Below are positions 31,755-56,300 of a DNA stretch of 64,000 nt, piece by piece; the stretch's first letter is position 1; every line of letters starts with the position of its first letter. The stretch spans positions 550,231 to 614,230 of the forward strand of contig NZ_VAHN01000001.1 of NCBI RefSeq assembly GCF_005796205.1, in the 5' to 3' direction. Made by a program: the position numbers and the translations under genes. Source of the DNA: Pseudarthrobacter sp. NamE2. Lineage in GTDB: Bacteria; Actinomycetota; Actinomycetes; Actinomycetales; Micrococcaceae. The notes under the pieces were generated by a model. That model did not search any database and was not told the origin of the DNA. It saw only the letters and a list, made by a program, of their open reading frames with translations.

Positions 31755-34259
31755 ATGGCCCGCCGCCAAAGTTCAGCCCCCGTGGACACCACCCCCTACA
31801 CGGAGAACATCGTCGACATCGACGTCACTTCCGAGATGGAGGGCTCCTTCCTGGAGTACGCCTATTCAGTGATCTACTCACGGGCGCTTCCAGATGCCCG
31901 CGACGGGCTGAAGCCGGTGCAGCGCCGGATCCTCTACATGATGAGCGACATGGGCCTGCGCCCGGACCGCGGCCACGTCAAGAGCGCCCGGGTGGTGGGC
32001 GAGGTCATGGGCAAGCTCCACCCCCACGGCGACACCGCCATCTACGACGCCCTGGTGCGCATGGCGCAGGATTTCTCCCTGCGTCTGCCGCTGGTTGACG
32101 GGCACGGCAACTTCGGCTCGCTCGACGACGGCCCGGCGGCTCCGCGGTACACGGAGGCCAGGCTGGCGGCCGCCGCCCTCACCCTCACCGACCACCTCGA
32201 CGAAGACGTCGTCGACTTCGTTCCCAACTACGACAACCAGCTGACCCAGCCCGAGGTCCTCCCCGCGGCGTTCCCCAACCTGCTGGTCAACGGCGCCACC
32301 GGCATCGCCGTCGGCATGGCCACGAACATGGCCCCGCACAACCTGGTGGAGGTCATCTCCGCCGCGCGGCACCTGATCGCGCACCCGGATGCCAGCCTGG
32401 ATGACATCATGCGCTTTGTTCCGGGCCCGGACCTGCCCAGCGGCGGCCGGATCGTGGGACTGGACGGCATCCGTGACGCCTACGCCACCGGCCGCGGTTC
32501 GTTCAAGACCCGGGCCAAGGTGGAGATCGAGCAGCTCTCCGCACGGCGCACCGGCCTGGTGGTCACCGAGCTCCCCTACATGGTGGGCCCGGAAAAGGTG
32601 ATCGAAAAAATCAAGGACTCCGTCAACGCCAAGAAGCTGACGGGCATCAGCGACATCGTTGACCTGACCGACCGCAAGAACGGGCTGCGCCTGGTCATCG
32701 AGCTCAAGAACGGCTTCAACCCGAATGCCGTCCTCCAGCAGCTCTACCGCTACACGCCGATGGAGGACTCCTTCGGCATCAACAACGTCACCCTGGTGGA
32801 CGGCCAGCCGCAGACCCTGGGCCTGGTGGAGCTGCTGTCCGTCTATGTCAACCACCGGATCGACGTTGTCCGCCGCCGCACCGTGTACCGGCTGGGCAGG
32901 AAGAAGGACCGCCTCCACCTGGTGGAAGGCCTCCTGATCGCCATCGTGGACATCGACGAGGTCATCCAGATCATCCGGTCCTCGGACGAGGCCGCGGCCG
33001 CCCGTGAGCGGCTGATGTCCATCTACGACCTGTCCGAGGTGCAGGCGAACTACATCCTGGAACTGCGGCTCCGCCAGCTCACCAAGTACTCCCGGATCGA
33101 GCTGGAAAAGGAGCAGGAGGAGCTGCGCCGCGAAATCGAGGAGCTGGAGGCAATCCTCGGCTCCGAGGAACTGCTGCGCGGCGTTGTTTCGGACGAACTG
33201 GGCGACATTGCCGAAAAGCACGGCACTCCCCGCCGGACGGTGCTGCTGGAATCGGAAGCGGTGGCCCCCACCGTGGCCGCCGAACTGACAGGTGCGAACG
33301 GGAAGAAGGGCAAGCCTGCGCCGCTTGCCCTCGAAATCGCCGACGACCCCTGCTGGGCGATCCTCACCGCCTCGGGGCAGATCGGCCGCACGGGCAACCA
33401 GGAGCCGCTGGCCGAATCCGGGCCGCGGAGCAAGCACGATGTGTTTACGTCGGTGGTGAAGACGTCGGCGCGCGGCGAGATCGCGGCCGTCACCTCCCTG
33501 GGACGCATGCTCCGCCTGCAGGTCATGGACATGCCTGTGCTTCCGCCGGTGGCGGGCCTGCCCAACCTCGCCGGAGGCGTCCCGGCCAAGGAATTCCTGA
33601 CGCTGCTGAAGGGTGAAACCCTGGTGGCGTTCGTTCCGCTGGACGAGGTCCTGGCCATCGGCACCGCCCAGGGCGTGGTGAAGCGGGTGCAGCCCGACTA
33701 CCCGCTGAACCGCGAGGACTGGGAAGTCATCACCCTCAAGGACAAGGACTTCGTGGTGGGCGTGGTGCCGGCCGGGGCGGACGATGCCGAACTGGTGTTC
33801 CTCACCGCCCAGGCCCAGCTGCTGAAGTTCAGTGCGGCCAGCGTCCGGCCGCAGGGCCGCACGGCCGGCGGCATGGCGGGCATCAAGCTGGGCGCGGGCG
33901 ACCGCGTGATCTTCTTCGGTGCCGTGCAGCCCAGGGACGAGGCCGCCGTCGTGGTGACCATTGCCGGCACCAACGGCGCCCTTCCCGGAACCGCGCCGGG
34001 CACCGCCAAGGTGACCGCGATTGCCGAGTACCCGGCCAAGGGCCGTGCCACCGCGGGTGTCCGGGCGCACCGCTTCCTGAAGGGCGAGGATACGCTGCTG
34101 CTCGCGTGGGCAGGACACGGCCCGGCCAAGGCGTCCTCCTCCGCAGGCGTTGCCCGGTCCCTGCCGCAGGAGCACGGCCGGCGCGACGGGTCCGGCGTTC
34201 CGCTGTCCCAGCCGGTGGATGCGGTGGGTCCTGCCATGGCATGGCCTGATCCCGCCTAG
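31755..34259 (+). CDS. parC: DNA topoisomerase IV subunit A (ParC/GyrA family)
   Basis: DNA-cleaving subunit of a type IIA topoisomerase, 834 aa. The catalytic Tyr lies in [10 protein letters not shown], and the quinolone-region motif reads [17 protein letters not shown] with Thr at the E. coli Ser83 position and the Asp four residues later. A breakage-reunion core, coiled-coil ([19 protein letters not shown]) and C-terminal beta-pinwheel repeats (about 515 onward, such as [16 protein letters not shown] and [13 protein letters not shown]) are present. A strict gyrase GyrA-box is not seen, and the partner ATPase gene lies 8 kb away at 42478, which favours topoisomerase IV over gyrase. ATG 31755 with an AAGGAT ribosome site. 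Confidence 0.92.
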
Positions 34260-34268: not shown

Positions 34269-34787
34269 ATGCCTATCGTTCCTGATGAGAAGGACTGGAC
34301 CTGGGTCCTGACCCGCCCATGCCCGGAGTGCTCCTTTGATGCCTCCACAGCCACCCCGGCAACGGTCCCCGGCAGCATCGAGAACATGCTGCCGCGGTGG
34401 CGGGCAGTCCTGCGCAGGCCCAACGCCGCGGAACGGCCCAACGACCACACCTGGTCAGCGCTGGAGTACGCCTGCCATGTGCGGGATGTCTTCAGCCTCT
34501 TCGACCAGCGCCTGGACCTCATGCTCGAGTCCGACAACGCCCGGTTCGAAAACTGGGACCAGGACCAGACCGCCATGGACAAGGACTATGCCAGCGCCGA
34601 TCCGGCGGTGGTCAGTGCCGAGCTGACCGCTGAGGGCAGGCAGGCGGCCGAGTCCTTCGCCCGTGTCCGGGAAGCGGACTGGGGCAGGAGGGGGCTGCGC
34701 AGCAACGGCTCGGAATTCACCGTCCTGACGCTGGCCCAGTATTTCCTGCACGACGTCGTCCACCACCTCCACGACGTGGACGGCTAA
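34269..34787 (+). CDS. DinB-family metal-binding protein
   Basis: 172 aa, four-helix DinB_2 fold. Metal-site histidines are expected in EYACHVRDVFSLF and in the C-terminal FLHDVVHHLHDV. Actinobacterial members are often mycothiol- or bacillithiol-dependent transferases or detoxification proteins; here the thiol cofactor would be mycothiol, which is known for Micrococcaceae. N-terminal CPECSF holds two cysteines. The stop overlaps the end of the convergent cydDC gene by four bases. Substrate unknown. Confidence 0.8.
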   Translation: MPIVPDEKDWTWVLTRPCPECSFDASTATPATVPGSIENMLPRWRAVLRRPNAAERPNDHTWSALEYACHVRDVFSLFDQRLDLMLESDNARFENWDQDQTAMDKDYASADPAVVSAELTAEGRQAAESFARVREADWGRRGLRSNGSEFTVLTLAQYFLHDVVHHLHDVDG

Positions 34788-37700
34788 GCCTCTCCCGCGT
34801 TTGTTCCGGCCGGGACCGCCAGCCCCTGGGCGCGGCGTTCGACGCCGGCCGGCAGGACGAGCCGTGCGTCTTCCGGATGGATGTCGTCCGGGTTGTGCGT
34901 TACCAGCACCACGGTCCGGTCCTTGAGGCCGGTTCGCAGGTCCGCCAGCATGTGGCGGGCGGAGCCGGCGTCCAGGTGCGCCGTGGGTTCGTCCAGCAGG
35001 ATTACTTCCGCCCCGGTCATCAGGGTCCGTGCCACGGCGAGGCGCTGGCGCTCTCCCCCGCTGAGGAAGGCGCCGCCGGGGCCGATCCGGGTGTCGAGGC
35101 CAGCGGGCAGCCGCTCCAGCAGGGCGTCGAGGCCCACGGCATTTAGGACGGCCCGCATGTCCGCCTCGGCACCGTCCCCACTGCCGTTTCCGGCTGCCGG
35201 CCGGCCCAGCAGCAGGTTGCCTCGGAAGGTCGAGTCGAAAAGGTGGGCCTCCTGCGGGCACCAGGCAGCCGGGCCGGTAACGCGCGCCTTCCCCGCCGCC
35301 GGCGGAAGGAAGCCAAGGAGGACCGAGAGCAGGGTGGATTTTCCGGAGCCCGAGGGGCCGGTGACGGCCAGCCAGCGGCCAGGCTCCGCCACGGCGTCCA
35401 GGCCTGAGAATACGGGTGCTCCTCCCGGCCAGGCGGCTGCCAGGGCCTCGAGTTCGACGCCGGGCCGGCCGCCGCTGCGCGCGGGGACCGCATGCAGCCC
35501 GTCGCGGCTGTCCTGCTCTGCATTCCCGGCGTCCAGGGCGCCGGACTCCCCCACCCGCTGCAGGACTGTCCGCAGCGCGGGGAACTGCCGTACCGCCGTC
35601 GTCATGGCCGCGAAAGGTTCCACCAGCGCCAGGAGCAGCAGGACCACCACGGCCGCCGTGGCCGGCGCGATGCGTCCGTCCAGCACCGCCGGTGCCGCCA
35701 GCCAGGCACCCGCGAGGGCCGCGGCACCGCACGCTGCGGTGGTGATGGCATGTCCCAGCCCGTCTGCCCACGCGGACCGCTGCGATGCCGCGGTGGCACT
35801 GCGGTCCTGTGCCTTCAGGTCTGCAAGCACGAGGGGCGCCACACCGTTGGCGTGCAGTTCCGCCCGGGCATCGAGCGCGGCCGCGACGCTGCGCAGCACC
35901 CCCGAGCGCAGGAGCCGCTCGGCGGTGGCCGACTTCCGGTCGCCCCACAGGGCAGCGGCCGGGGCTACGACAACACCGGCAATGCCTGCCGCGATAACGG
36001 CCGGCAGCACGGCGGGCACCAGCAGCCAGGTGGTGGTGACGGCAAGCACCGCAACGGCCGCTGCGGTGACCGGCGGCAGGACCACGCGGGGCAGGAGGTC
36101 ACGGACGGTATCGACGTCGTCAATCACGGTCCCCAGCACGTTGCCGCCCTGCAGCAGTCGCCGGAGCGAGAGGGCGCGCCGGCTCAGCGACTCCCAGAGC
36201 CGGCCCCGCAGCCGGGTCAGGGCCGCGAAGACGGCGTCGTGCAGCAGGAGCCGTTCGCAGTAACGGAACACGGCGCGGCCGATGCCAAAGAACCGCACGC
36301 CCACAATCGCCGAGAGCAGGTACAGGATGGGCGGCTGCTCGCTGGCGCGTATGATCAGCCAGCCCGAAAGGCCGGACAAGGCGACGGCGAAAACGGCCGC
36401 CAGCGTGCCGACCACCGCGGCGGCGGCAAACTTGCCCTGCACCGGGGCGAGGAGCGATCGCAGGAGCCGCGCGGGGCCGTGCCGTGGCGCCGGCGCGGCA
36501 TCGGGCATGCTGTGGGCCCCGGCGTGTGCGCTGCCAGTGCCGGCATCCTGTCCGGGTGCCGCATCCGCACCGGTGACGGCGGCAGGCAGCACCGGGGCTG
36601 CTGCTTCCTGCCCCTCCTCTGTACCGTGTCCGACCTTCACCACGTGGTCGGCCAGGTTCCGGGTGCGTTCCCCGTGCGCCACCAGGATCACGGTCACCTG
36701 GCCGCGCAGCCTGCGGACGGTGTCCTCCACCAGCATCGCGGACCCGTCATCCAGGTGTGCGGTGGGTTCGTCAAGCAGCAGGACGGTGGCGCCGGCCTCG
36801 ATCCGGGCCAGTCCGCGGGCCACGGCGACACGGCGGAGTTCGCCCGGGCTCAGTTCGGCCGGGTGCTTTCCGGCCAGGTGGACGGCTGCGGCGCGGGCCA
36901 GGCAGGACCGGGCAATCTCCTCTGTCCGGGCGCGGTCACGGGAATTGCGGGCATGTGCAGCGAGATAGAGCAGCACTTCGTCCAGGACCGTCCCGGCCAC
37001 CATCACCGGATGCTGCGGAACCCATGCCACGGCGCTGCGGTCCAGGCCCTTGACCGTGCCGGTGGTCTCCGTTCCGCCACCAGATCCGATGGTTCCGGCC
37101 AGGACTCCGAGAACCGTGCTCTTTCCGGCGCCGCTGGGGCCGTCCAGGGCTGTGATCCTGCTCTGCGGCGCCTCGAAGGTAAGGGGCCCGACGGCGGCGT
37201 GCGACCTTCCGCTGTAGCTGACTGTAAGCCCGGTGACGGTGATGGGGGCGCCGGGACGGCCGGCCGGGACAACGGCCAGCGGCTGCGGCCCGGGCGCTTC
37301 AGTGACCGAGGTGACCTCTGCGAAGGCGACGCGGCCGTCGTCGCTGGCGTGGTGCGCGGTGCCCAGCTCGCGCAGGGGCAGGTAGCAGTCCGGGGCAAGG
37401 ATCAGGGCCAGCAGCCCGGCCTCAAGCGGCATGCCGCCGTGAACCAGGCGCACGCCGATGAACACGGCCACCACGGCCACCGAAATCGTGGCGATCAGTT
37501 CCAGCGCCAGGGCGGACATAAACGCTGTGCGGAGCGTGCCCATGGTGCGGGCGCGGTATTCCTCGGAGATCTCCTCCAGTGCCTTGCGTTGTGCCGTGGC
37601 GCGGCCGAGTCCCACCAGGACCGGCAGGCCTTTTGCGAGTTCCAGCATATGGGCGGAAAGCCGGGCAAGGGTGGACTGCGCCTCGCGCACCTTGTCCTCC

Positions 37701-38221
37701 GTGTACCGGCCGATCAGCACCATGAACAACGGCACCAGCGGCACGGTAAGGACGATCACCACGGCGCTGACCCAGTCGGCGAACAGGATCCGGGCGCCCA
37801 GCAGCAGCGGGATGGCGGCGCAGTTGACCAGGGCGGGCAGGAACTGGGTGTAGTAGCTGTCCAGGGCGTCCAGGCCGCGGGTGGCCAGGACGGCAAGGCC
37901 GCCGTCCGCGGGGCCGGCGCCCCTGGCACCGTTCCGGAGTGCGCGCTCCAGCAGTCCGGAGCGCAGTTCCTCCTTGATGCCCAGGGCGGCGCGCCGGGCG
38001 GCGACCGCCTGGCCCCACACGGTGAGCGAGCGGAGGACGACGCCGGCCAGCCCCGGAATCAGCTGTCCGGCCCACTCCTGTTCCCCGGCGGCCAGTCCGG
38101 CCAGGACGGAGGCGACGGCCTGGCCCATGAGCACCAGCGACAGCGCCTTGAGCGCCGCCAGAAAGCCAAGCCAATAGATGGCGGACCGGGTGGCCGGGCC
38201 TGCGGGGAAGGATGGCCGCAC
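34784..38221 (-). CDS. cydDC: Fused CydDC thiol-reductant ABC exporter
   Basis: Single 1145-aa chain joining CydD and CydC, each with six membrane helices plus an ABC domain. The transporter exports glutathione/cysteine (or other thiols in actinobacteria) and is needed to assemble cytochrome bd. First ATPase: Walker A GPSGAGKST, signature LSPGELRRVAVA, Walker B VLLLDEPTAHLD. Second ATPase: Walker A GPSGSGKST, signature LSGGERQRLAVA, Walker B VILLDEPTAHLD. In E. coli the two halves are separate proteins; the fusion occurs in many actinobacteria. Start GTG 38221 is one base after the cydB stop with AAGGG upstream; the longer open frame overlaps cydB and is rejected. Confidence 0.92.
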   Translation of the reverse strand: MRPSFPAGPATRSAIYWLGFLAALKALSLVLMGQAVASVLAGLAAGEQEWAGQLIPGLAGVVLRSLTVWGQAVAARRAALGIKEELRSGLLERALRNGARGAGPADGGLAVLATRGLDALDSYYTQFLPALVNCAAIPLLLGARILFADWVSAVVIVLTVPLVPLFMVLIGRYTEDKVREAQSTLARLSAHMLELAKGLPVLVGLGRATAQRKALEEISEEYRARTMGTLRTAFMSALALELIATISVAVVAVFIGVRLVHGGMPLEAGLLALILAPDCYLPLRELGTAHHASDDGRVAFAEVTSVTEAPGPQPLAVVPAGRPGAPITVTGLTVSYSGRSHAAVGPLTFEAPQSRITALDGPSGAGKSTVLGVLAGTIGSGGGTETTGTVKGLDRSAVAWVPQHPVMVAGTVLDEVLLYLAAHARNSRDRARTEEIARSCLARAAAVHLAGKHPAELSPGELRRVAVARGLARIEAGATVLLLDEPTAHLDDGSAMLVEDTVRRLRGQVTVILVAHGERTRNLADHVVKVGHGTEEGQEAAAPVLPAAVTGADAAPGQDAGTGSAHAGAHSMPDAAPAPRHGPARLLRSLLAPVQGKFAAAAVVGTLAAVFAVALSGLSGWLIIRASEQPPILYLLSAIVGVRFFGIGRAVFRYCERLLLHDAVFAALTRLRGRLWESLSRRALSLRRLLQGGNVLGTVIDDVDTVRDLLPRVVLPPVTAAAVAVLAVTTTWLLVPAVLPAVIAAGIAGVVVAPAAALWGDRKSATAERLLRSGVLRSVAAALDARAELHANGVAPLVLADLKAQDRSATAASQRSAWADGLGHAITTAACGAAALAGAWLAAPAVLDGRIAPATAAVVVLLLLALVEPFAAMTTAVRQFPALRTVLQRVGESGALDAGNAEQDSRDGLHAVPARSGGRPGVELEALAAAWPGGAPVFSGLDAVAEPGRWLAVTGPSGSGKSTLLSVLLGFLPPAAGKARVTGPAAWCPQEAHLFDSTFRGNLLLGRPAAGNGSGDGAEADMRAVLNAVGLDALLERLPAGLDTRIGPGGAFLSGGERQRLAVARTLMTGAEVILLDEPTAHLDAGSARHMLADLRTGLKDRTVVLVTHNPDDIHPEDARLVLPAGVERRAQGLAVPAGTNAGEA

Positions 38222-38222
38222 G

Positions 38223-39272
38223 TCAGCCCTTCGTGGTGAACGCCTTGGCGGCGACGGCGGGCAGGAAGCTGTGGGCGTCCGGGATGGAAGCGGCGCTGAC
38301 GCGCCGGCGGAACACCCAGTAGGTCCAGGCCTGGTAGGCAATTACCAGCGGCAGGCCGAACGCGGCCGCAATGCTCATAAGGCCCAAAGTGTAGTCGGAC
38401 GAGGAGGCGTTCGAAATGGTGAGGTCGAACGCCCCGTCCAGGGTGGACGGCAGCACCACGGGGAACACGGCGCCGAAGATGGACGTGGTGCCCAGCACAA
38501 GGAACGCACCGAGGGCCACAAACGCTTTTCCTTCGGCTCCGGCACGGGCCAGCGTCCACGCCGCTGCCGCTGCTGTGACGGCGAGCAGGACGGCCGCCCA
38601 GGTCCATGGCTTCCCGTCCAGTGCCTGGATGGTGAGCGCCCAGGCCGCGATGGGAAGCAGCAGGACCGGAAGGAGGCGGACGAACCACCGGCGTGCCCGG
38701 TGCCGCACGTCGCCGTCGGTCTTCAACGCCAGGAACGCCAGGGCGTGGAGCAGCGAGAAGCCCACCACGGCGAGCCCGCCGAGGACGGCGTAGCCGCTGA
38801 ACCAGGCGAACGGTCCGCCTTCGCGGTCGCCGTTGGCGTTGAGGGGCAGTCCGGTGGTGGTCAGGGCCAGTGCGGCGCCCACGCCGAAGGCAGCGAAGAA
38901 GGAACCCAGCGCGATGGCCCAGTCCCAGCGGGCACGCCAGCGGTCGGTGTCCCCCTTGCCGCGGTATTCGAACGCCACGGCGCGGAAGATCAGGGCCACC
39001 AGCACCACCAGCAGCGGCAGGTAGAGGGCGGAAAACAGTGAGGCGTACCAGAGCGGGAAGGCCGCGAACGTGGCGCCGCCTGCCGTGAGCAGCCATACTT
39101 CATTGCCGTCCCAGACGGGTCCGATGGTGTTGAGGAGCACGCGGCGCTCGGTGTTGTTGCGGGCAAAGGCCTTCATCAGCATTCCGACGCCCAGGTCGAA
39201 GCCCTCAAGGAAGAGGTACCCGGTCCACAGGACCGCGATGGCGATGAACCAGATGGTAGGCAGCAGTTCCAT
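38223..39272 (-). CDS. cydB: Cytochrome bd quinol oxidase subunit II
   Basis: 349-aa integral membrane protein with about nine hydrophobic helices. The N-terminus IWFIAIAVLWTGYLFLEGFDLGVGML carries the conserved Trp, Glu-Gly-Phe-Asp signature of CydB (proton path and structural role). Works with CydA as a high-affinity terminal oxidase that reduces O2 without pumping protons. The cydA stop is 18 bases upstream, and cydDC starts one base after its stop. Confidence 0.95.
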   Translation of the reverse strand: MELLPTIWFIAIAVLWTGYLFLEGFDLGVGMLMKAFARNNTERRVLLNTIGPVWDGNEVWLLTAGGATFAAFPLWYASLFSALYLPLLVVLVALIFRAVAFEYRGKGDTDRWRARWDWAIALGSFFAAFGVGAALALTTTGLPLNANGDREGGPFAWFSGYAVLGGLAVVGFSLLHALAFLALKTDGDVRHRARRWFVRLLPVLLLPIAAWALTIQALDGKPWTWAAVLLAVTAAAAAWTLARAGAEGKAFVALGAFLVLGTTSIFGAVFPVVLPSTLDGAFDLTISNASSSDYTLGLMSIAAAFGLPLVIAYQAWTYWVFRRRVSAASIPDAHSFLPAVAAKAFTTKG

Positions 39273-39290: not shown

Positions 39291-40892
39291 TTAGTAGGCG
39301 AATGCCAGGACGTCGTCTGCGGGTTTGCCGTTGCCGCCCTTGTCCGCGGGCGCCTGGTCCTCGTTTTCGTCCGCCGGGGCATGCGCGAGTTCCGGCATGG
39401 CGGAGACGACGCCGCCGCGGACGTACTTCACCAGCAGCTTGACCTCGACCACCAGCAGGACGGCGTAGACCCCAGTCAGGGTGACGAGCGAGGCCAGCAG
39501 TTCACCGGCCGAGACTCCGGGGGAAACTGCTGCGGCGGTGAACATGAATACCTGGTCGATGCCGTTGGGGTCCGGGTTGGGTGCCACCACGAAGGGCTGC
39601 CGGCCCATTTCAGTGAAGATCCAGCCGGCGGCGTTGGCGCCAAACGGAGCCATGATTCCCAGGACGGCCAGGCGCATGAGCCAGCGTGATTCGGGAACGG
39701 TTCCGCTCCGGGTGAGCCAGAGTGCCCCGAACGCGGCCAGCGCGGCCAGGCCGCCGAAGCCGATCATCATGCGGAAGCCCCAGTAGGTGACTTCCATGAC
39801 CGGAAGGTAGTCAATTTCCTGCCCGGCCCGTTCGCCGTAAATCGGGTTGTCGGGAAGGTGGGTGCCGTAGTTTTCCTTGTACTCGGGCAGCAGGGTGTTG
39901 ACGCCCTTGACCTCGGTGGTGAAGTCGCCCTTCGCGAGGTAGGAGAGGATGCCGGGGACTTCGATCAATGCCACGATGTCGTCGCAGTTCTGTGCGCCCA
40001 GGTTGCCGATGCTCAGGACGGAGAACCCGGTACCGTCATGGCAGGCTGCTTCAGCCGCCGCCATCTTCATGGGCTGCTGTTCGAACATCAGCTTGCCCTG
40101 GAGGTCGCCCGTGACGGCGGTGCCGGCGAAGGAGATCATCGCCACCACGGCTCCGATCCGCAGTGAACGGATCCAGACGGTGTGGTCGCCGCGGTCGCGG
40201 CCGGGGATGGTTGCCGACTCGCCGGGGACCACTCTGCCGTCGGCACCCACGGTGTCGACGCCGTCGCGCCGGCGCCGCCAGAGGTGGTACCACGCAATGC
40301 CGAGCAGGAAACCGCCGGCCACCGCCAGCGCGCCGAAGAGGGTGTGCGGCACGGCCACCAGTGCGGTGTTGTTGGTGAAGACTGCCCAGGCGTCGGTCAT
40401 TACGGGGCGGCCGTCCACCATCTCCACACCCACCGGGTGCTGCATCCAGCTGTTCGCCACGATGATGAAGTAGGCGGAAAAAACCGAACCGATGACGGCC
40501 ACCCAAAGGCAGGCGAGGTGGATGGCCGGCTTCAGCTGCTTCCAGCCGAAGATCCACAGGCCCAGGAAGGTGGACTCGACAAAGAACGCCAGGAGGGCCT
40601 CCAACGCCAGCGGGGCGCCGAAGACGTCGCCCACGAACCGGCTGTACTCGCTCCAGGCCATCCCGAACTGGAACTCCTGCACAATGCCGGTGGCCACGCC
40701 CATGATGAAGTTGATGAGGAACAGCTTTCCCCAGAACTTGGTCATGCGCAGGTACTCGGGTCTGCCGGTGCGGTGCCAGGCGGTCTGGATGATGGCCACC
40801 ACCAGGCCAAGGCCGATAGTCAGCGGAACCATCATGAAGTGGTAGACCGTGGTGATACCGAATTGCCACCGTGCGATTTCCAAGGCGTCCAA
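39291..40892 (-). CDS. cydA: Cytochrome bd quinol oxidase subunit I
   Basis: Heme-bearing subunit, about 533 aa. I start at TTG 40892, which has AGGG six bases upstream and gives the family N-terminus ALEIARWQFGITTVYHFMMVPLTIGL. His18 then matches the heme b595 ligand His19 of E. coli. The GRQPW signature is present as EMGRQPFVV with Phe for Trp. The quinol loop is of the short type and contains several charged residues. The C-terminus is polar with an Asp/Lys-rich tail. The upstream 205-base gap to blaI carries three BlaI-type dyads; expression is probably repressed by BlaI. Confidence 0.93.
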   Translation of the reverse strand: MDALEIARWQFGITTVYHFMMVPLTIGLGLVVAIIQTAWHRTGRPEYLRMTKFWGKLFLINFIMGVATGIVQEFQFGMAWSEYSRFVGDVFGAPLALEALLAFFVESTFLGLWIFGWKQLKPAIHLACLWVAVIGSVFSAYFIIVANSWMQHPVGVEMVDGRPVMTDAWAVFTNNTALVAVPHTLFGALAVAGGFLLGIAWYHLWRRRRDGVDTVGADGRVVPGESATIPGRDRGDHTVWIRSLRIGAVVAMISFAGTAVTGDLQGKLMFEQQPMKMAAAEAACHDGTGFSVLSIGNLGAQNCDDIVALIEVPGILSYLAKGDFTTEVKGVNTLLPEYKENYGTHLPDNPIYGERAGQEIDYLPVMEVTYWGFRMMIGFGGLAALAAFGALWLTRSGTVPESRWLMRLAVLGIMAPFGANAAGWIFTEMGRQPFVVAPNPDPNGIDQVFMFTAAAVSPGVSAGELLASLVTLTGVYAVLLVVEVKLLVKYVRGGVVSAMPELAHAPADENEDQAPADKGGNGKPADDVLAFAY

Positions 40893-40921: not shown

Positions 40922-40938
40922 TTCTACGCTTCGTAGAA
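40922..40938. promoter_or_regulatory. BlaI-type operator 1 (cydA/blaI intergenic)
   Basis: 17-bp dyad TTCTACGCTTCGTAGAA: arms TTCTACG/CGTAGAA around CTT. It lies 30 bases upstream of the cydA TTG start. Confidence 0.7.
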
Positions 40939-40945
40939 CTCCAAC

Positions 40946-40962
40946 TTCTACCGAGTGTAGAA
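40946..40962. promoter_or_regulatory. BlaI-type operator 2 (cydA/blaI intergenic)
   Basis: TTCTAC-CGAGT-GTAGAA, same length, spacing and arms as operator 1. The centre lies 24 bases from operator 1, about two helical turns and slightly more. Confidence 0.7.
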
Positions 40963-40977
40963 CAACTTTGGGACATG

Positions 40978-40994
40978 TTCTACTCCATGTAGAA
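40978..40994. promoter_or_regulatory. BlaI-type operator 3 (cydA/blaI intergenic)
   Basis: TTCTAC-TCCAT-GTAGAA. The centre lies 32 bases (about three turns) from operator 2 and is the closest to blaI. A TAGATT hexamer at 41013 may be the blaI -10, with operator 3 over the -35 region. BlaI/MecI repressors bind as dimers to TACA/TGTA-type dyads of this kind. Confidence 0.7.
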
Positions 40995-41097
40995 AGTGCG
41001 GCGGATTCGCGGTAGATTTGTACTTGTAGTTGAAGAAACCGCGTGCAGTCACCGGTGCCACAGGGCGCATGGTGCGGGGAAACAAAGGAAAAGTGCA

Positions 41098-41466
41098 ATG
41101 GCGAGTCTTGGTGAACTGGAACGGGCAGTAATGGATCTGCTCTGGGCGGGCCAGGAAGCGGCTACGGCGAACACCCTCCGGGACCGGTTGGCCTCCGCGG
41201 GCTCCGGCCACGAGGGCAAGGAACTCGCCGTCACTACCGTGCTCACGGTGCTGTCCCGGCTGGAGAAGAAGGGGCTGGTGGAGCGCGAACGCGGCACCCG
41301 TCCGCACCGCTACCAGGCGGTGTCCAGCCGCGAAGAGCACACCGCGGAGCTGATGCATGAAGTCCTGGGTTCGGCTCCGGACCGAGAAGCCGTGCTGGCA
41401 CGCTTTATCGGTTCCGTTTCCGAGGGTGAAGCCGAGACACTGCGCAAGCTGCTTGGCCACCTCTAG
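41098..41466 (+). CDS. blaI: BlaI/MecI/CopY-family transcriptional repressor
   Basis: 122 aa. Winged-helix DNA-binding domain at the N-terminus (LGELERAVMDLLWAGQEAATANTLRDRL, then LAVTTVLTVLSRLEKKGLVERERGTRPHRYQAV) and a helical dimerisation tail. The family is inactivated by proteolysis by an adjacent M56 protease. ATG 41098 has an AAAGGA ribosome site; a longer frame from 40996 is rejected because it runs through the operator region. In M. tuberculosis BlaI (Rv1846c) controls genes including its own operon; here the divergent cyd operon is the likely main target, through the three dyads. Confidence 0.92.
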   Translation: MASLGELERAVMDLLWAGQEAATANTLRDRLASAGSGHEGKELAVTTVLTVLSRLEKKGLVERERGTRPHRYQAVSSREEHTAELMHEVLGSAPDREAVLARFIGSVSEGEAETLRKLLGHL

Positions 41467-41472
41467 CCACCC

Positions 41473-42462
41473 ATGTTCTGGGCCTCTTACCTGCTGGCGG
41501 TCCTGGCGGTAGTACTGGCCTGGCCGGTACCCATCCTGCTTTCGCGTGCACAATGGCCCGCACGTTCCCCTTTCACCGCCATGCTGCTCTGGCAGGCCAT
41601 CGCCCTTGCCGGCGGGCTGTCAATGATTGGCGCCATGCTGGTGTACGGACTCGAGCCGATCGGCGACAACCTGATCGCCGGGCTCCGGGCCCTCGCCGGC
41701 ATGGTGCTCTTCAATGCCCCCACCACGGCGCTGGGGTTCTGGCATATCTTTGCGTTGTCGGCAGCCGCGCTGCTGACGGCCCACCTGGTTTTCACGCTGC
41801 TGCTGACCTATTACAAAATCGAACGCCAGCGGCGGCGGCACCGCGAACTGCTGGCCCTGCTCGCCTCGCCTTCGGGGCAGGACGCCGCAACCCTCGTCAT
41901 CAGCCACGACTCCCCCGTCGCGTACTGCCTGCCCGGAGGTTCCCGCTCGGTGACCGTCCTGTCCGACGGCCTGATGGCGGCACTGGAGCCGGCGGAGCTG
42001 CGCGCCGTGTTGATTCACGAAAATGCCCACCTCAGCCAGCGGCACCATCTCCTCCTGTGGGCTTTCGCGGCCTGGCGGCAGGCCCTGCCCTGGCTGCCCA
42101 CCACGCGGCTTGCCCAGGAATCCGTGAACTCGCTTATTGAGATGCTCGCCGACGACGTGGCGCTGAAGACCGAGAGCAAGGCCACGCTGATCAAGGCGAT
42201 TGCCATCGTGGCCAGCGGGTCGGCACCTGCCGGTTCGACCGGGCTGCAGCCGGCAACGTCCAGCCTTGTACTGTCCGGGCTCGACAACGGGACGGGCGGG
42301 GCAGGCTCGGATTCGGCCCGGACCACCGCCTCAAGGGTCAGCCGGCTCCTGTCGCCCCAGCCCCAGCTTCCGGCGGCACTGCGGAACCTTGTCCTTGCCG
42401 GCTGCATCCTGCTGCTGGCGCTGCCGACGGCCCTGCTGGTGGTGCCCGGCCTCCTCGGGTGA
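41473..42462 (+). CDS. M56-family membrane metalloprotease (BlaR1/MecR1-like, no penicillin sensor)
   Basis: 329 aa. Three N-terminal membrane segments (about 3-25, 38-60, 84-116), then a cytoplasmic zinc-protease domain with HENAH (His182, Glu183, His186) and the downstream Glu in LIEMLADDVALK. A last membrane helix lies at about 303-329. BlaR1 has in addition an extracellular penicillin-binding domain; here nothing follows the last helix, so the signal is sensed by the membrane part. It starts six bases after blaI, so the two form an operon. Expected to cleave BlaI on receipt of a respiratory or envelope signal. That link is inferred. Confidence 0.87.
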   Translation: MFWASYLLAVLAVVLAWPVPILLSRAQWPARSPFTAMLLWQAIALAGGLSMIGAMLVYGLEPIGDNLIAGLRALAGMVLFNAPTTALGFWHIFALSAAALLTAHLVFTLLLTYYKIERQRRRHRELLALLASPSGQDAATLVISHDSPVAYCLPGGSRSVTVLSDGLMAALEPAELRAVLIHENAHLSQRHHLLLWAFAAWRQALPWLPTTRLAQESVNSLIEMLADDVALKTESKATLIKAIAIVASGSAPAGSTGLQPATSSLVLSGLDNGTGGAGSDSARTTASRVSRLLSPQPQLPAALRNLVLAGCILLLALPTALLVVPGLLG

Positions 42463-42477: not shown

Positions 42478-44583
42478 CTAGGCGTCGATGCGCTCCCGGT
42501 CCAGGCTGGAGGCGCCAGCAATGATGAAGTCCTTGCGCGGGGACACGTCGGAGCCCATCAGCAGGTCGAAGATCTCCTCCGCCTGCTTGGCGTTCTCAAT
42601 GCCCACCTTTCGCAAGGTGCGGTGCCGCGGATCCATGGTGGTCTCCGCCAGCTGCTCGGCGTCCATTTCCCCCAAACCCTTGTAGCGCTGGATGGGTTCC
42701 TTGTACCGCTTGCCCTCCTTGGCCAGCCGCGCCAGCAGCGCGTGCAGTTCGGCCTCGGAGTAGGTGTAAATCATCTCGTTGGCCTTCTGGCCCGGGTTGA
42801 TCACCTCCACCCGGTGCAGCGGGGGCACGGCGGCGAAGACCCTGCCCTCGTCGATCATGGGGCGCATGTACCGGAAGAACAGGGTCAGCAGGAGCGTGCG
42901 GATGTGCGCGCCATCCACGTCGGCGTCGGTCATCAGGATGACCTTGCCGTAGCGTGCGGCGCTGATGTCGAAGCTGCGCCCCGATCCCGCCCCCACCACC
43001 TGGATCAGCGCGGCGCACTCGGCGTTGGAGAGCATATCTCCCACCGATGCCTTCTGGACGTTCAGGATCTTGCCGCGGATGGGCAACAGGGCCTGGAAGT
43101 CGGAGGACCGGGCGAGCTTGGCGGTTCCCAGCGCCGAGTCGCCTTCCACGATGAACAATTCGGAGCGTTCGACGTCGTCCGTGCGGCAGTCGGCCAGCTT
43201 GGTGGGCATCGAGGAGGTCTCCAGCGCGTTCTTGCGCCGCTGGGTCTCCTTGTGCACGCGGGCCGAGATCCGCGACTTCATTTCGCTGACGATCTTTTCG
43301 AGCAGCAGCGCGGTCTGCGACTTGTCGTTTTTGTTCGACGAGGTGAGCTTGGCCGTGATTTCGCGCTCCACCACCCTGGCAACGATGGCGCGGACAGCCG
43401 AAGTGCCCAGGATCTCCTTGGTCTGCCCCTCGAACTGCGGCTCGGCCAGCCGGACCGTGAGCACGGCCGTGAGCCCGGCGAAGATGTCGTCCTTTTCGAT
43501 CTTGTCGTTGCCGGCCTTCAGCTTGCGGGCGTTGCTCTCCACGGCCTTCCGGAAGGTCTTCACCAGGGCCTGTTCGAAGCCGGACTGGTGCGTTCCGCCC
43601 TTGGGTGTGGAGATGATGTTGACGAAGCTACGGACGGTGCTGTCGTAGCCGATGCCCCAGCGCAGGGCGACGTCCACTTCGCAGTCGCGCTCCACCTCGG
43701 CGAGCTGGCTGTGCCCGCGCTCATCGAGGACCGGGACCGTTTCCTTGAACTTGCCCGAGCCGTGCAGCCGCCACACATCGGTGACGGCGGGATCGGCCGC
43801 CAGGAATTCCACGAACTCGGAGATGCCGCCGTCGTGGTGGAACACTTCCTCGTGGGGGCCGGACTCGCCGGGCGTGCCGGCGATCCTGCGCTCGTCGCGG
43901 ACGGTGATCTTGAGTCCGGGGACCAGGAACGAGGTCTGCCGGGCGCGGGAAACGAGTTCGTCGTACTGGAACTTCGCGTCCGGGGTGAAGATCTGCCGGT
44001 CTGCCCAGTACCGGATCCGGGTACCGGTGATGCCCCTCTTGGCCTTGCCCACGACGTCCAGGACCGAGTCCTCGATGAACGGACTGAAGGACGCAGCCGG
44101 GTCAGGCCGGCTGCCGTCCTGGAACCGGCCGGGCTCACCGCGGCGGAAGGACATCTTGTAGGTCTTGCCGCCGCGGTCCACTTCCACGTCCAGGCGCGAG
44201 GACAGGGCGTTCACCACTGAAGCGCCCACGCCGTGCAGGCCTCCGGAGGCGGTGTAGGAGCCGCCGCCGAACTTGCCGCCGGCATGCAGCTTGGTGAAGA
44301 CCACTTCGACGCCGGTGAGTCCGGTCTTCGGTTCCTTGTCGATGGGGATGCCGCGGCCGTCGTCGTGGATTTCCACGGAGTTGTCCGCATGCAGGATGAC
44401 TTTGATGTCATGGCCGAACCCGGCCAATGCCTCGTCCACGGAGTTGTCGATGATCTCCCAGAGGCAGTGCATGAGCCCCCGGGAGTCGGTGGAACCGATG
44501 TACATGCCCGGGCGCTTACGGACGGCTTCAAGGCCCTCCAGCACGGAAAGGTGCCGGGCGGTGTACTCAGAACTTGGTGCCAC
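42478..44583 (-). CDS. parE: DNA topoisomerase IV subunit B (ParE/GyrB family)
   Basis: ATPase subunit of the type IIA enzyme, 701 aa. GHKL motifs: EIIDNSVDEALAG, DDGRGIPIDKEP, GGLHGVGASVVNALS. TOPRIM motifs: LFIVEGDSALGTAKLAR (EGDSA) and LMTDADVDGAHIRTLLL (DxDxD). The C-terminal QRYKGLGEMDAEQLAETTMDP is the conserved end. It lacks the long insert of E. coli GyrB. ParC is 8 kb away on the other strand, and chromosomal gyrA/gyrB are expected near the origin, so I call ParE. ATG 44583 is reached from the upstream intergenic region shared with the DUF7455 gene. Confidence 0.92.
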   Translation of the reverse strand: MAPSSEYTARHLSVLEGLEAVRKRPGMYIGSTDSRGLMHCLWEIIDNSVDEALAGFGHDIKVILHADNSVEIHDDGRGIPIDKEPKTGLTGVEVVFTKLHAGGKFGGGSYTASGGLHGVGASVVNALSSRLDVEVDRGGKTYKMSFRRGEPGRFQDGSRPDPAASFSPFIEDSVLDVVGKAKRGITGTRIRYWADRQIFTPDAKFQYDELVSRARQTSFLVPGLKITVRDERRIAGTPGESGPHEEVFHHDGGISEFVEFLAADPAVTDVWRLHGSGKFKETVPVLDERGHSQLAEVERDCEVDVALRWGIGYDSTVRSFVNIISTPKGGTHQSGFEQALVKTFRKAVESNARKLKAGNDKIEKDDIFAGLTAVLTVRLAEPQFEGQTKEILGTSAVRAIVARVVEREITAKLTSSNKNDKSQTALLLEKIVSEMKSRISARVHKETQRRKNALETSSMPTKLADCRTDDVERSELFIVEGDSALGTAKLARSSDFQALLPIRGKILNVQKASVGDMLSNAECAALIQVVGAGSGRSFDISAARYGKVILMTDADVDGAHIRTLLLTLFFRYMRPMIDEGRVFAAVPPLHRVEVINPGQKANEMIYTYSEAELHALLARLAKEGKRYKEPIQRYKGLGEMDAEQLAETTMDPRHRTLRKVGIENAKQAEEIFDLLMGSDVSPRKDFIIAGASSLDRERIDA

Positions 44584-55912: not shown

Positions 55913-55929
55913 TACTACAGGCTGTAGAA
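55913..55929. promoter_or_regulatory. BlaI-type dyad upstream of the 116-aa membrane protein gene
   Basis: TACTAC-AGGCT-GTAGAA, the same 6-5-6 layout as the three cyd/blaI operators with one base changed in the left arm; it can also be read as CTACAG-G-CTGTAG. It sits over the -35 position of the promoter whose -10 is TAGACT at 55938, so binding would repress. Confidence 0.6.
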
Positions 55930-55949: not shown

Positions 55950-56300
55950 ATGAACATCCTCTACAACATTGTGGTCTTCCTGCACATCGTCGGCGCGGCA
56001 ATGATCGTGGGCATCTGGATCGGGCAAATGAAGAAGCCCACAGTCCACCCCCGGCAGTTCGACGGCGCCATGACGCAGCTCCTCACCGGCGTCGTCCTGA
56101 TGGGGCTCATCCCCGCACTGGATATGGACGCCAACTACGCCAAGCTCGGCATTAAGCTGGTCATTGCCGTGGTTGTCGGCGTCCTGGCCTTCATCGGCCG
56201 CCGGAAGTACAAGGCGGGAGAGGCGGTCAGCCCAGGCCTGGCACACGCGGTGGGCGGCCTGGCGCTGTTGAACATTGCCATCGCCACCATCTGGGACTGA
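55950..56300 (+). CDS. Small four-helix membrane protein, unknown function
   Basis: 116 aa, almost wholly membrane. Four hydrophobic segments: about 2-25 (ILYNIVVFLHIVGAAMIVGIWIG with His12 inside the membrane), 42-58, 65-82 and 94-114. A conserved-looking K-K-P-T-V-H-P loop lies after helix 1. Intramembrane His residues are common in heme- or copper-binding membrane proteins, but a family could not be named. The BlaI-like dyad in front of it suggests co-control with cytochrome bd. It is preceded by the sucB terminator and so has its own promoter. Confidence 0.7.
   Translation: MNILYNIVVFLHIVGAAMIVGIWIGQMKKPTVHPRQFDGAMTQLLTGVVLMGLIPALDMDANYAKLGIKLVIAVVVGVLAFIGRRKYKAGEAVSPGLAHAVGGLALLNIAIATIWD

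Follow-up and report, generated by a model that had tools for sequence, protein, structure and literature searches.

Exact dyads between cydA and blaI in Pseudarthrobacter sp. NamE2 as predicted operators of a wide respiratory BlaI regulon

BlaI of Mycobacterium tuberculosis is reported to bind the promoters of the cytochrome bd and ATP synthase genes (PMC5473688, citing Sala et al. 2009). The mycobacterial BlaR is described there as lacking an extracellular sensor domain as well (PMC5473688). The atp genes are named as BlaI targets in several reports (PMC5874750, PMC7924339, PMC12565901, PMC8265638). According to one of these, mycobacterial BlaI binds at Rv1303 and lowers the expression of the Rv1303 homologue, and a knock-down of blaI led to no rise in ATP (PMC12565901). 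For most Actinomycetota the control of haem supply and of terminal oxidase choice is poorly known. A review from 2024 on the coproporphyrin-dependent haem pathway presents known regulation in the actinomycetotes Corynebacterium glutamicum and C. diphtheriae, and the name BlaI is absent from its main text as far as accessible (PMC10991733).

Here we analyzed a stretch of 64 kb from Pseudarthrobacter sp. NamE2 (in the following the window), in which cydA and a blaI gene are divergently orientated around a gap with three identical dyads. We consider it likely that these dyads are operators of the adjoining BlaI, which would repress the aerobic respiratory chain together with the haem and copper supply until an M56 protease cleaves it.

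Genes and dyads of the cydA–blaI gap

To the left of the gap are located cydA, encoding cytochrome bd oxidase subunit I (39291-40892, minus strand; PF01654, 506 bits), cydB, encoding subunit II (38223-39272, minus strand; PF02322, 339 bits), and the gene of a fused ABC exporter (34784-38341, minus strand) with two ABC_tran stretches and one ABC_membrane stretch according to Pfam. All three are orientated leftwards. The exporter is probably CydDC, a name suggested by the place of its gene. Its ORF overlaps the end of the cydB gene, which leaves the actual start codon uncertain. To the right, blaI (41098-41466, plus strand) encodes a BlaI/MecI-family repressor of 122 aa (PF03965, 77.8 bits with a cut-off of 22.6). 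It is followed by the gene of an M56/M48-type membrane zinc protease without sensor domain (41473-42462, plus strand; 329 aa; PF01435, PF05569), and both genes are orientated rightwards. Since the gap between them is only 6 bp, they probably form one operon. The start of cydA is most likely the TTG at 40892, outside the dyads; a TTG, ATG or GTG was found at the aligned position in all 78 relatives scored. The complete cyd–blaI block is flanked by two genes that resemble those of GyrA/ParC- and GyrB/ParE-type topoisomerase subunits (31755-34259 and 42478-44583, named by eye) and face each other.

Within the gap the pattern TTCTAC-N5-GTAGAA was found three times without mismatch. Dyad 1 (TTCTACGCTTCGTAGAA, 40922-40938) lies in the cydA leader, dyad 2 (TTCTACCGAGTGTAGAA, 40946-40962) over the putative -10 element of cydA and dyad 3 (TTCTACTCCATGTAGAA, 40978-40994) near the putative -35 element of blaI; each of them is a predicted BlaI operator. 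The centres are located at 40930, 40954 and 40986, and the scan thereby confirmed the first-pass annotation, which had reported three exact dyads at these positions with centres 24 and 32 bases apart. No other exact copy was present in the 64 kb. With up to three mismatches allowed, the window contained 13 matches compared to a mean of 4.46 (sd 1.97) after shuffling, and none of 100 shuffles reached 13.

The putative promoter elements were read from an alignment of 14 gaps. Inspection suggested TACACT (40954-40959, minus strand), located inside dyad 2, as the -10 element of cydA, and invariant AxTGTA columns were seen at dyad 2. For blaI the putative -10 element is TAGATT (41013-41018, plus strand), 18 bp after dyad 3, where TAxATT was invariant in 14 of 14 aligned gaps. 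A scan of the cydA–blaI gap for sigma-70 consensus promoters and terminators returned none, the two putative -10 elements included. The longest invariant runs of the alignment were the dyads themselves. Additionally, an imperfect fourth dyad (TTGTACTTGTAGTTGAA, two mismatches, 41018-41034) is located just past the putative -10 element of blaI and is not conserved in the aligned relatives.

Relatives of the gap were found via the protease gene, and the best 80 of 139 were fetched. Of these best 80 of 139, 78 carried a pair of exact dyads near cydA, spaced by 23-26 bp, and one further exact dyad 111-132 bp before the blaI start. The dyads are therefore not absent from orthologous cyd–blaI gaps, the outcome which the first-pass annotation had named as speaking against its proposal. 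Two relatives (L038, L039) had no cydA in the fetched stretch and kept the blaI dyad 112-113 bp before blaI. That the dyad core is unbroken in the relatives is partly due to selection, because the dyads were found as exact matches. The dyad spacer and most of the flanking positions were variable, with some positions strongly kept around dyads 2 and 3.

In 76 relatives, 86-212 bases lie between the starts of dyads 2 and 3. In two others (L063, L064) the distance is 3.4-3.7 kb, and each part of the split set stays with its own gene. In the window this distance is 32 bp, with positions 40963-40977 in between. The short spacing suggests a local deletion of approximately 55 bp, which may have removed an old -35 element of cydA.

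Sites and targets in the genome, the family and beyond

The genome of 4.04 Mb contained 7 exact dyads compared to 1 copy of the reversed control pattern, and 0.026 exact copies would be expected from base composition. Chance palindromes as the origin of the dyads were ruled out by the shuffles, the control pattern and this expectation. Outside the gap, exact sites were located before hemQ-hemH-hemC (NCBIfam HemQ_actino, hemH, hemC), before a histidine-phosphatase-resA-ccdA-resB operon for cytochrome c maturation (ResB, 481 bits), before the gene of a PF12900 flavin-oxidase-like protein and before the gene of a 119-aa membrane protein without Pfam match.

Seven one-mismatch sites were found outside the exact set, six before genes and one inside a gene. 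Five of them precede qcrC, the gene of a 112-aa membrane protein, sucCD, an ABC-ctaA operon and atpB, the last with the gene of a small membrane protein in between. Another one (TACTACAGGCTGTAGAA, 55913-55929) is located in the window before an ORF for a 116-aa membrane protein without Pfam match, here named Mem116 (55950-56300, plus strand). Exact dyads also precede relatives of Mem116 in three further genera, and related dyads do so in all three genomes of the family f21 described below. Mem116 is likely a member of the regulon and looks like a core one.

By number the one-mismatch sites showed no excess (14 versus 11 control sites), and their counts alone were dismissed as uninformative; it is the positions alone that separate the two groups. 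Sites with at most one mismatch were located before genes in 13 of 14 cases compared to 2 of 11 control sites (Fisher p 2.4e-4), and 9 of the 11 reversed-pattern control sites lay inside genes. Both the cyd and the atp promoters are among the targets, as judged by site and not by binding, with exact dyads at cyd and a one-mismatch dyad before the atpB operon. Since the same or nearly the same dyads are present at cyd, haem, cytochrome and ATP-synthase genes, the BlaI–protease pair is predicted to be their common respiratory switch.

At least one exact copy was present in 90 of 100 genomes of the host family (Micrococcaceae), which represented 31 genera. In total, these 100 genomes carried 472 exact copies compared to 38 for the control (our own sum of the control column). 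The annotation of 15 family genomes covered 105 of 107 exact sites, three of them the window's own; one site each of G016 and G012 was left out. Genes were called with our own codon-usage script and named after their BLAST matches in a panel to which these same loci had contributed, and Pfam backs many of the labels, not all. The truncated globin (L141), the AtpI-type genes (L176, L215), hmp (L209) and the membrane genes beside CopC or YcnI were labelled by our own reading.

Outside the window, the annotated sites of the 15 genomes belonged to 84 loci. At 61 of them the gene behind the dyad is a respiratory, haem, copper or globin gene, sucC or blaI. Another 16 loci have a member of one of three recurring families without known function in this place, and at 7 the site lies before or in a gene without evident link to respiration. 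Besides cyd, the most common target was hemQ (13 of 15 genomes; cydA in 13 and in the window's). Flavohaemoglobin was a target in 7 of 15 genomes and the ABC-ctaA operon in 4, while ctaB, ctaC, SURF1, sdhC, hemA/hemE (one genome), qcrC and copC were targets in one to three of the 15 each. The 119-aa membrane protein (L008, 5090-5449) recurred as a target in 8 of 15 genomes and the PF12900 flavin-oxidase-like protein (L005, 4562-4987) in 5 of 15. No beta-lactamase or cell-wall enzyme gene was recognised behind the sites of the annotated loci, with Pfam applied to part of the flanking genes. A motif restricted to cyd, blaI and a few co-regulated genes, the case that the first-pass annotation wanted checked, was thus too narrow an expectation, since the targets comprise the haem and respiratory machinery in general.

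The BlaI, MecI and CopY operators have TACA/TGTA as their core. The centre of the sites resembles this core, reading TACR-N3-YGTA in 75 of 105 cases.

Among 198 genomes of the host order, an exact copy was found in 36, all of which belonged to four families (the host's, f6, f14 and f18). In f6 (L201, L212) and f18 (L206, L207, L208, L210, L211) dyads are located between cydA and blaI-M56. Other sites of f6 and f18 were found at detached CydDC-like exporters (L206, L208), at resA-ccdA (L218) and at an hmp-like gene (L209), and the f6 sites L199, L200 and L202 gave no match to known functions. The dyads of f14 (L203, L204, L205) precede a PepSY_TM gene that adjoins another blaI-M56 pair, and therefore the operator may serve another use there.

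In three genomes of f21, a family more distant from the host's, the blaI promoters carry TACGAC-N5-GTAGTA. A search with at most one mismatch to TACTAC-N5-GTAGTA gave 25 places, of which 24 were annotated. Of the latter, 14 were located before blaI (3/3 genomes), cydA (3/3), the Mem116 relative (3/3), ctaA (2/3) or the ATP-synthase I gene (2/3), and 10 were off-pattern, 8 without a link seen and 2 inside genes. Because the raw counts of f21 one-mismatch sites were below control (8, 7 and 10 versus 28, 21 and 32), the case for f21 is made by position and gene identity. Furthermore, 13 blaI upstream stretches from outside the host family were compared. A dyad of the TAC/GAC-N5-GTA type was present in seven (L201, L203, L205, L232, L233, L234, L250), five had no dyad and one had another repeat only. 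The dyads at the blaI promoters of f14 and f21 are of the same 17-bp build with different flanks.

BlaI, the protease and the genomes that carry them

In the whole genome PF03965 was found in one protein only, the BlaI encoded next to cydA. Compared by sequence with the PDB it matched 2G9W (E 1.3e-17), and the best Foldseek matches of a structure model were 2G9W (8.1e-7) and MecI (5.8e-5). From this model of the monomer, BlaI is predicted to have the BlaI/MecI winged-helix dimer fold.

The protease matched PF01435 (M48) with 38.6 bits, passing the cut-off of 20.3, and PF05569 (M56) with 22.9 bits, below the cut-off of 31. Both domains were found in many of the 120 listed relatives of the protease. 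These peptidase domains were the only Pfam matches along its 329 aa, and the earlier statement that this M56 protease has no penicillin-binding domain holds. By sequence the protease had no match in the PDB up to E = 1, and therefore folds were compared instead. Its structure model was nearest to BlaR1 and suggests a BlaR1-type transmembrane protease fold with an HExxH zinc site.

The HExxH motif, E223 and C152 were invariant in 29 of 29 protease sequences. Cys152 is located within an A-Y-C-x-P motif, 30 residues ahead of HExxH, and is a candidate thiol or metal sensor. By our own reading it is carried by 12 of 26 phylum-wide M56 matches. It therefore marks a wider subgroup, and the idea that Cys152 is specific to the respiratory M56 proteins was not upheld.

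Scans for BlaI and CydA covered 80 of the 100 family genomes, including every genome with a low site count. Ten had no full-length BlaI; nine of these had no exact site and one (G058) had a single site. A cydA gene was present in five of the ten, including four of the nine without sites. Conversely, four genomes with BlaI and without cydA carried 5, 5, 5 and 15 exact sites. That the motif goes with cyd and not with BlaI was ruled out by these genomes with only one of the two. The p-value for the co-occurrence of BlaI and sites (5e-7) overstates independence because the genomes are related. Of the 66 genomes having both genes, 60 had blaI no more than 1.2 kb from cydA, and in G034, L063 and L064 the two genes are apart, each keeping dyads. 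There were exceptions: G087 carried BlaI beside cydA and no exact site, and each of the four g11 genomes had one site and a blaI gene distant from cydA.

The highest number of exact dyads (15) was found in G012 (L179-L192), which has no cydA; they are located before ctaB, ctaC, SURF1, sdhC, hemQ and copC-type genes. The regulon therefore outlives the bd oxidase.

Based on the distribution of the sites, the co-occurrence and the f21 dyads, BlaI is very probably the regulator of the dyads, and its regulon is very probably far wider than cyd. The first-pass annotation had proposed the pair as a switch of cyd. This stood insofar as the dyads follow BlaI rather than cyd and mark respiratory genes, but a scope of cyd and a few further genes was too narrow. 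A wide respiratory regulon of BlaI with the cyd–blaI gap as its hub is strongly supported by these sequence comparisons.

Proposed mechanism, rival readings and known systems

In the mechanism we propose, one BlaI dimer would bind to each dyad. At cydA, dyad 2 would cover the -10 element and dyad 1 would be located at the transcript start, and dyad 3 would be located at the -35 element of blaI, a placement that would give repression and autoregulation. The targets comprise the bd oxidase, haem, cytochrome c maturation, bc1-aa3 parts, copper handling and NO globins, and this set points to a failing haem-copper oxidase branch as the signal. Less certainly, and as a guess, the sensor-less protease would read this failure from an altered redox state or copper supply at the membrane, possibly via Cys152. 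By cutting BlaI it would raise bd oxidase, haem synthesis, cytochrome c maturation and bc1-aa3 biogenesis together and, in relatives, the NO-detoxifying globins too.

A more far-reaching version is put forward tentatively, since we doubt it somewhat more than we believe it. In the Actinobacteria, BlaI and the sensor-less M56 protease could be the ancestral system by which aerobic respiration as a whole is switched. A single proteolytic relay, responding to the redox state or to a metal at the cysteine near the zinc motif, would set bd oxidase, haem synthesis, cytochrome c maturation, bc1-aa3 biogenesis and ATP synthase jointly, and the mycobacterial control of beta-lactamase would be a late recruit.

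Copper and haem are the main rival signals. In a copper switch of the PetRP kind, copper would control the M56 protease and BlaI would balance the copper-free bd oxidase against the haem-copper chain. A precedent is the pair of PetR (BlaI type) and PetP (BlaR1-like protease), which governs plastocyanin and cytochrome c6 and in which PetP is activated by copper (PMC7896320, PMC13421787). Genes of the CopC, CopD/CtaG and YcnI types are among the targets in some relatives. However, fewer than half of the 15 genomes have copper genes among their targets, and no copper proteins are encoded by the haem, ATP-synthase and flavohaemoglobin targets, which makes a copper switch rather unlikely in our opinion. 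The pair might also sense haem or its shortage and tune haem synthesis together with the haem-using enzymes. The rank of hemQ among the targets (13 of 15 genomes, with hemA/hemE in one) would fit, nearly all named targets make or use haem, and in Corynebacterium a similar role is played by HrrSA (PMC7337898). However, haem synthesis is intracellular, no feature of the protease points to haem, and haem proteins make up only part of the atp, sucCD and SdhC-type targets; we regard haem as an unlikely signal.

The pair could also serve the classical response to beta-lactams or at the cell wall, with the respiratory genes targeted only secondarily. This is suggested by the family name and by the precedent in Staphylococcus aureus and M. 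tuberculosis, where exposure to beta-lactams induced blaI-blaR together with cydAB (PMC5473688). Such a response appears quite improbable for a protease that has no penicillin-binding domain, and with none of the annotated site loci located before a recognised beta-lactamase or cell-wall gene (Pfam on part of the flanking genes). The dyads could finally be bound by a regulator other than BlaI, as the few genomes that break the correlation between BlaI and sites might indicate. This is very improbable, given that the dyad is found upstream of blaI as well, stays with blaI where cydA is located elsewhere and is nearly confined to genomes with a full-length BlaI, and that the f14 and f21 blaI promoters share its 17-bp build with other flanks.

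If a BlaI-controlled respiratory regulon, the reading preferred here, is true, respiration and haem would be regulated by a repressor family known from antibiotic resistance, which would also explain why M. tuberculosis BlaI is found on respiratory promoters. The BlaI (Rv1846c) and BlaR (Rv1845c) of M. tuberculosis are similar to the pair described here in the repressor family (2G9W, E 1.3e-17) and in the sensor-less protease. The cyd and atp promoters are involved in both, there by reported binding and here by predicted sites (PMC5473688). M. tuberculosis BlaI has been studied as a regulator of the beta-lactamase blaC, and the accounts of it, as far as accessible, name no targets in haem synthesis, cytochrome c maturation or flavohaemoglobin, whereas such genes are among the predicted targets here. 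Unlike in M. tuberculosis, blaI adjoins cydA here and the operator is TTCTAC-N5-GTAGAA.

With cyanobacterial PetR-PetP the pair shares a BlaI-type regulator, a neighbouring BlaR1-like protease and targets in electron transport (PMC7896320). PetR-PetP, however, has a four-protein regulon, a copper signal and a dual activator-repressor role (PMC7896320), and the set predicted here is much wider. BlaI-BlaR1 and MecI-MecR1 of S. aureus are similar in the repressor fold and the protease fold as far as our models indicate, but the beta-lactam-binding sensor domain of S. aureus BlaR1 is absent from the protease described here. HrrSA of C. glutamicum likewise coordinates haem synthesis and terminal oxidase choice (PMC7337898). 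It is a two-component system and thus fulfils an analogous task with unrelated parts.

The first-pass annotation had called such control of bd oxidase little described in Micrococcaceae. For this family no report in which BlaI controls cyd, haem or cytochrome genes was found in the open-access literature, in a search partly swamped by off-topic matches, but BlaI at cyd and atp promoters is known in M. tuberculosis (PMC5473688). The kind of control is therefore known from mycobacteria; as far as searched, the operator, the gene linkage and the scope over haem and cytochrome genes are new.
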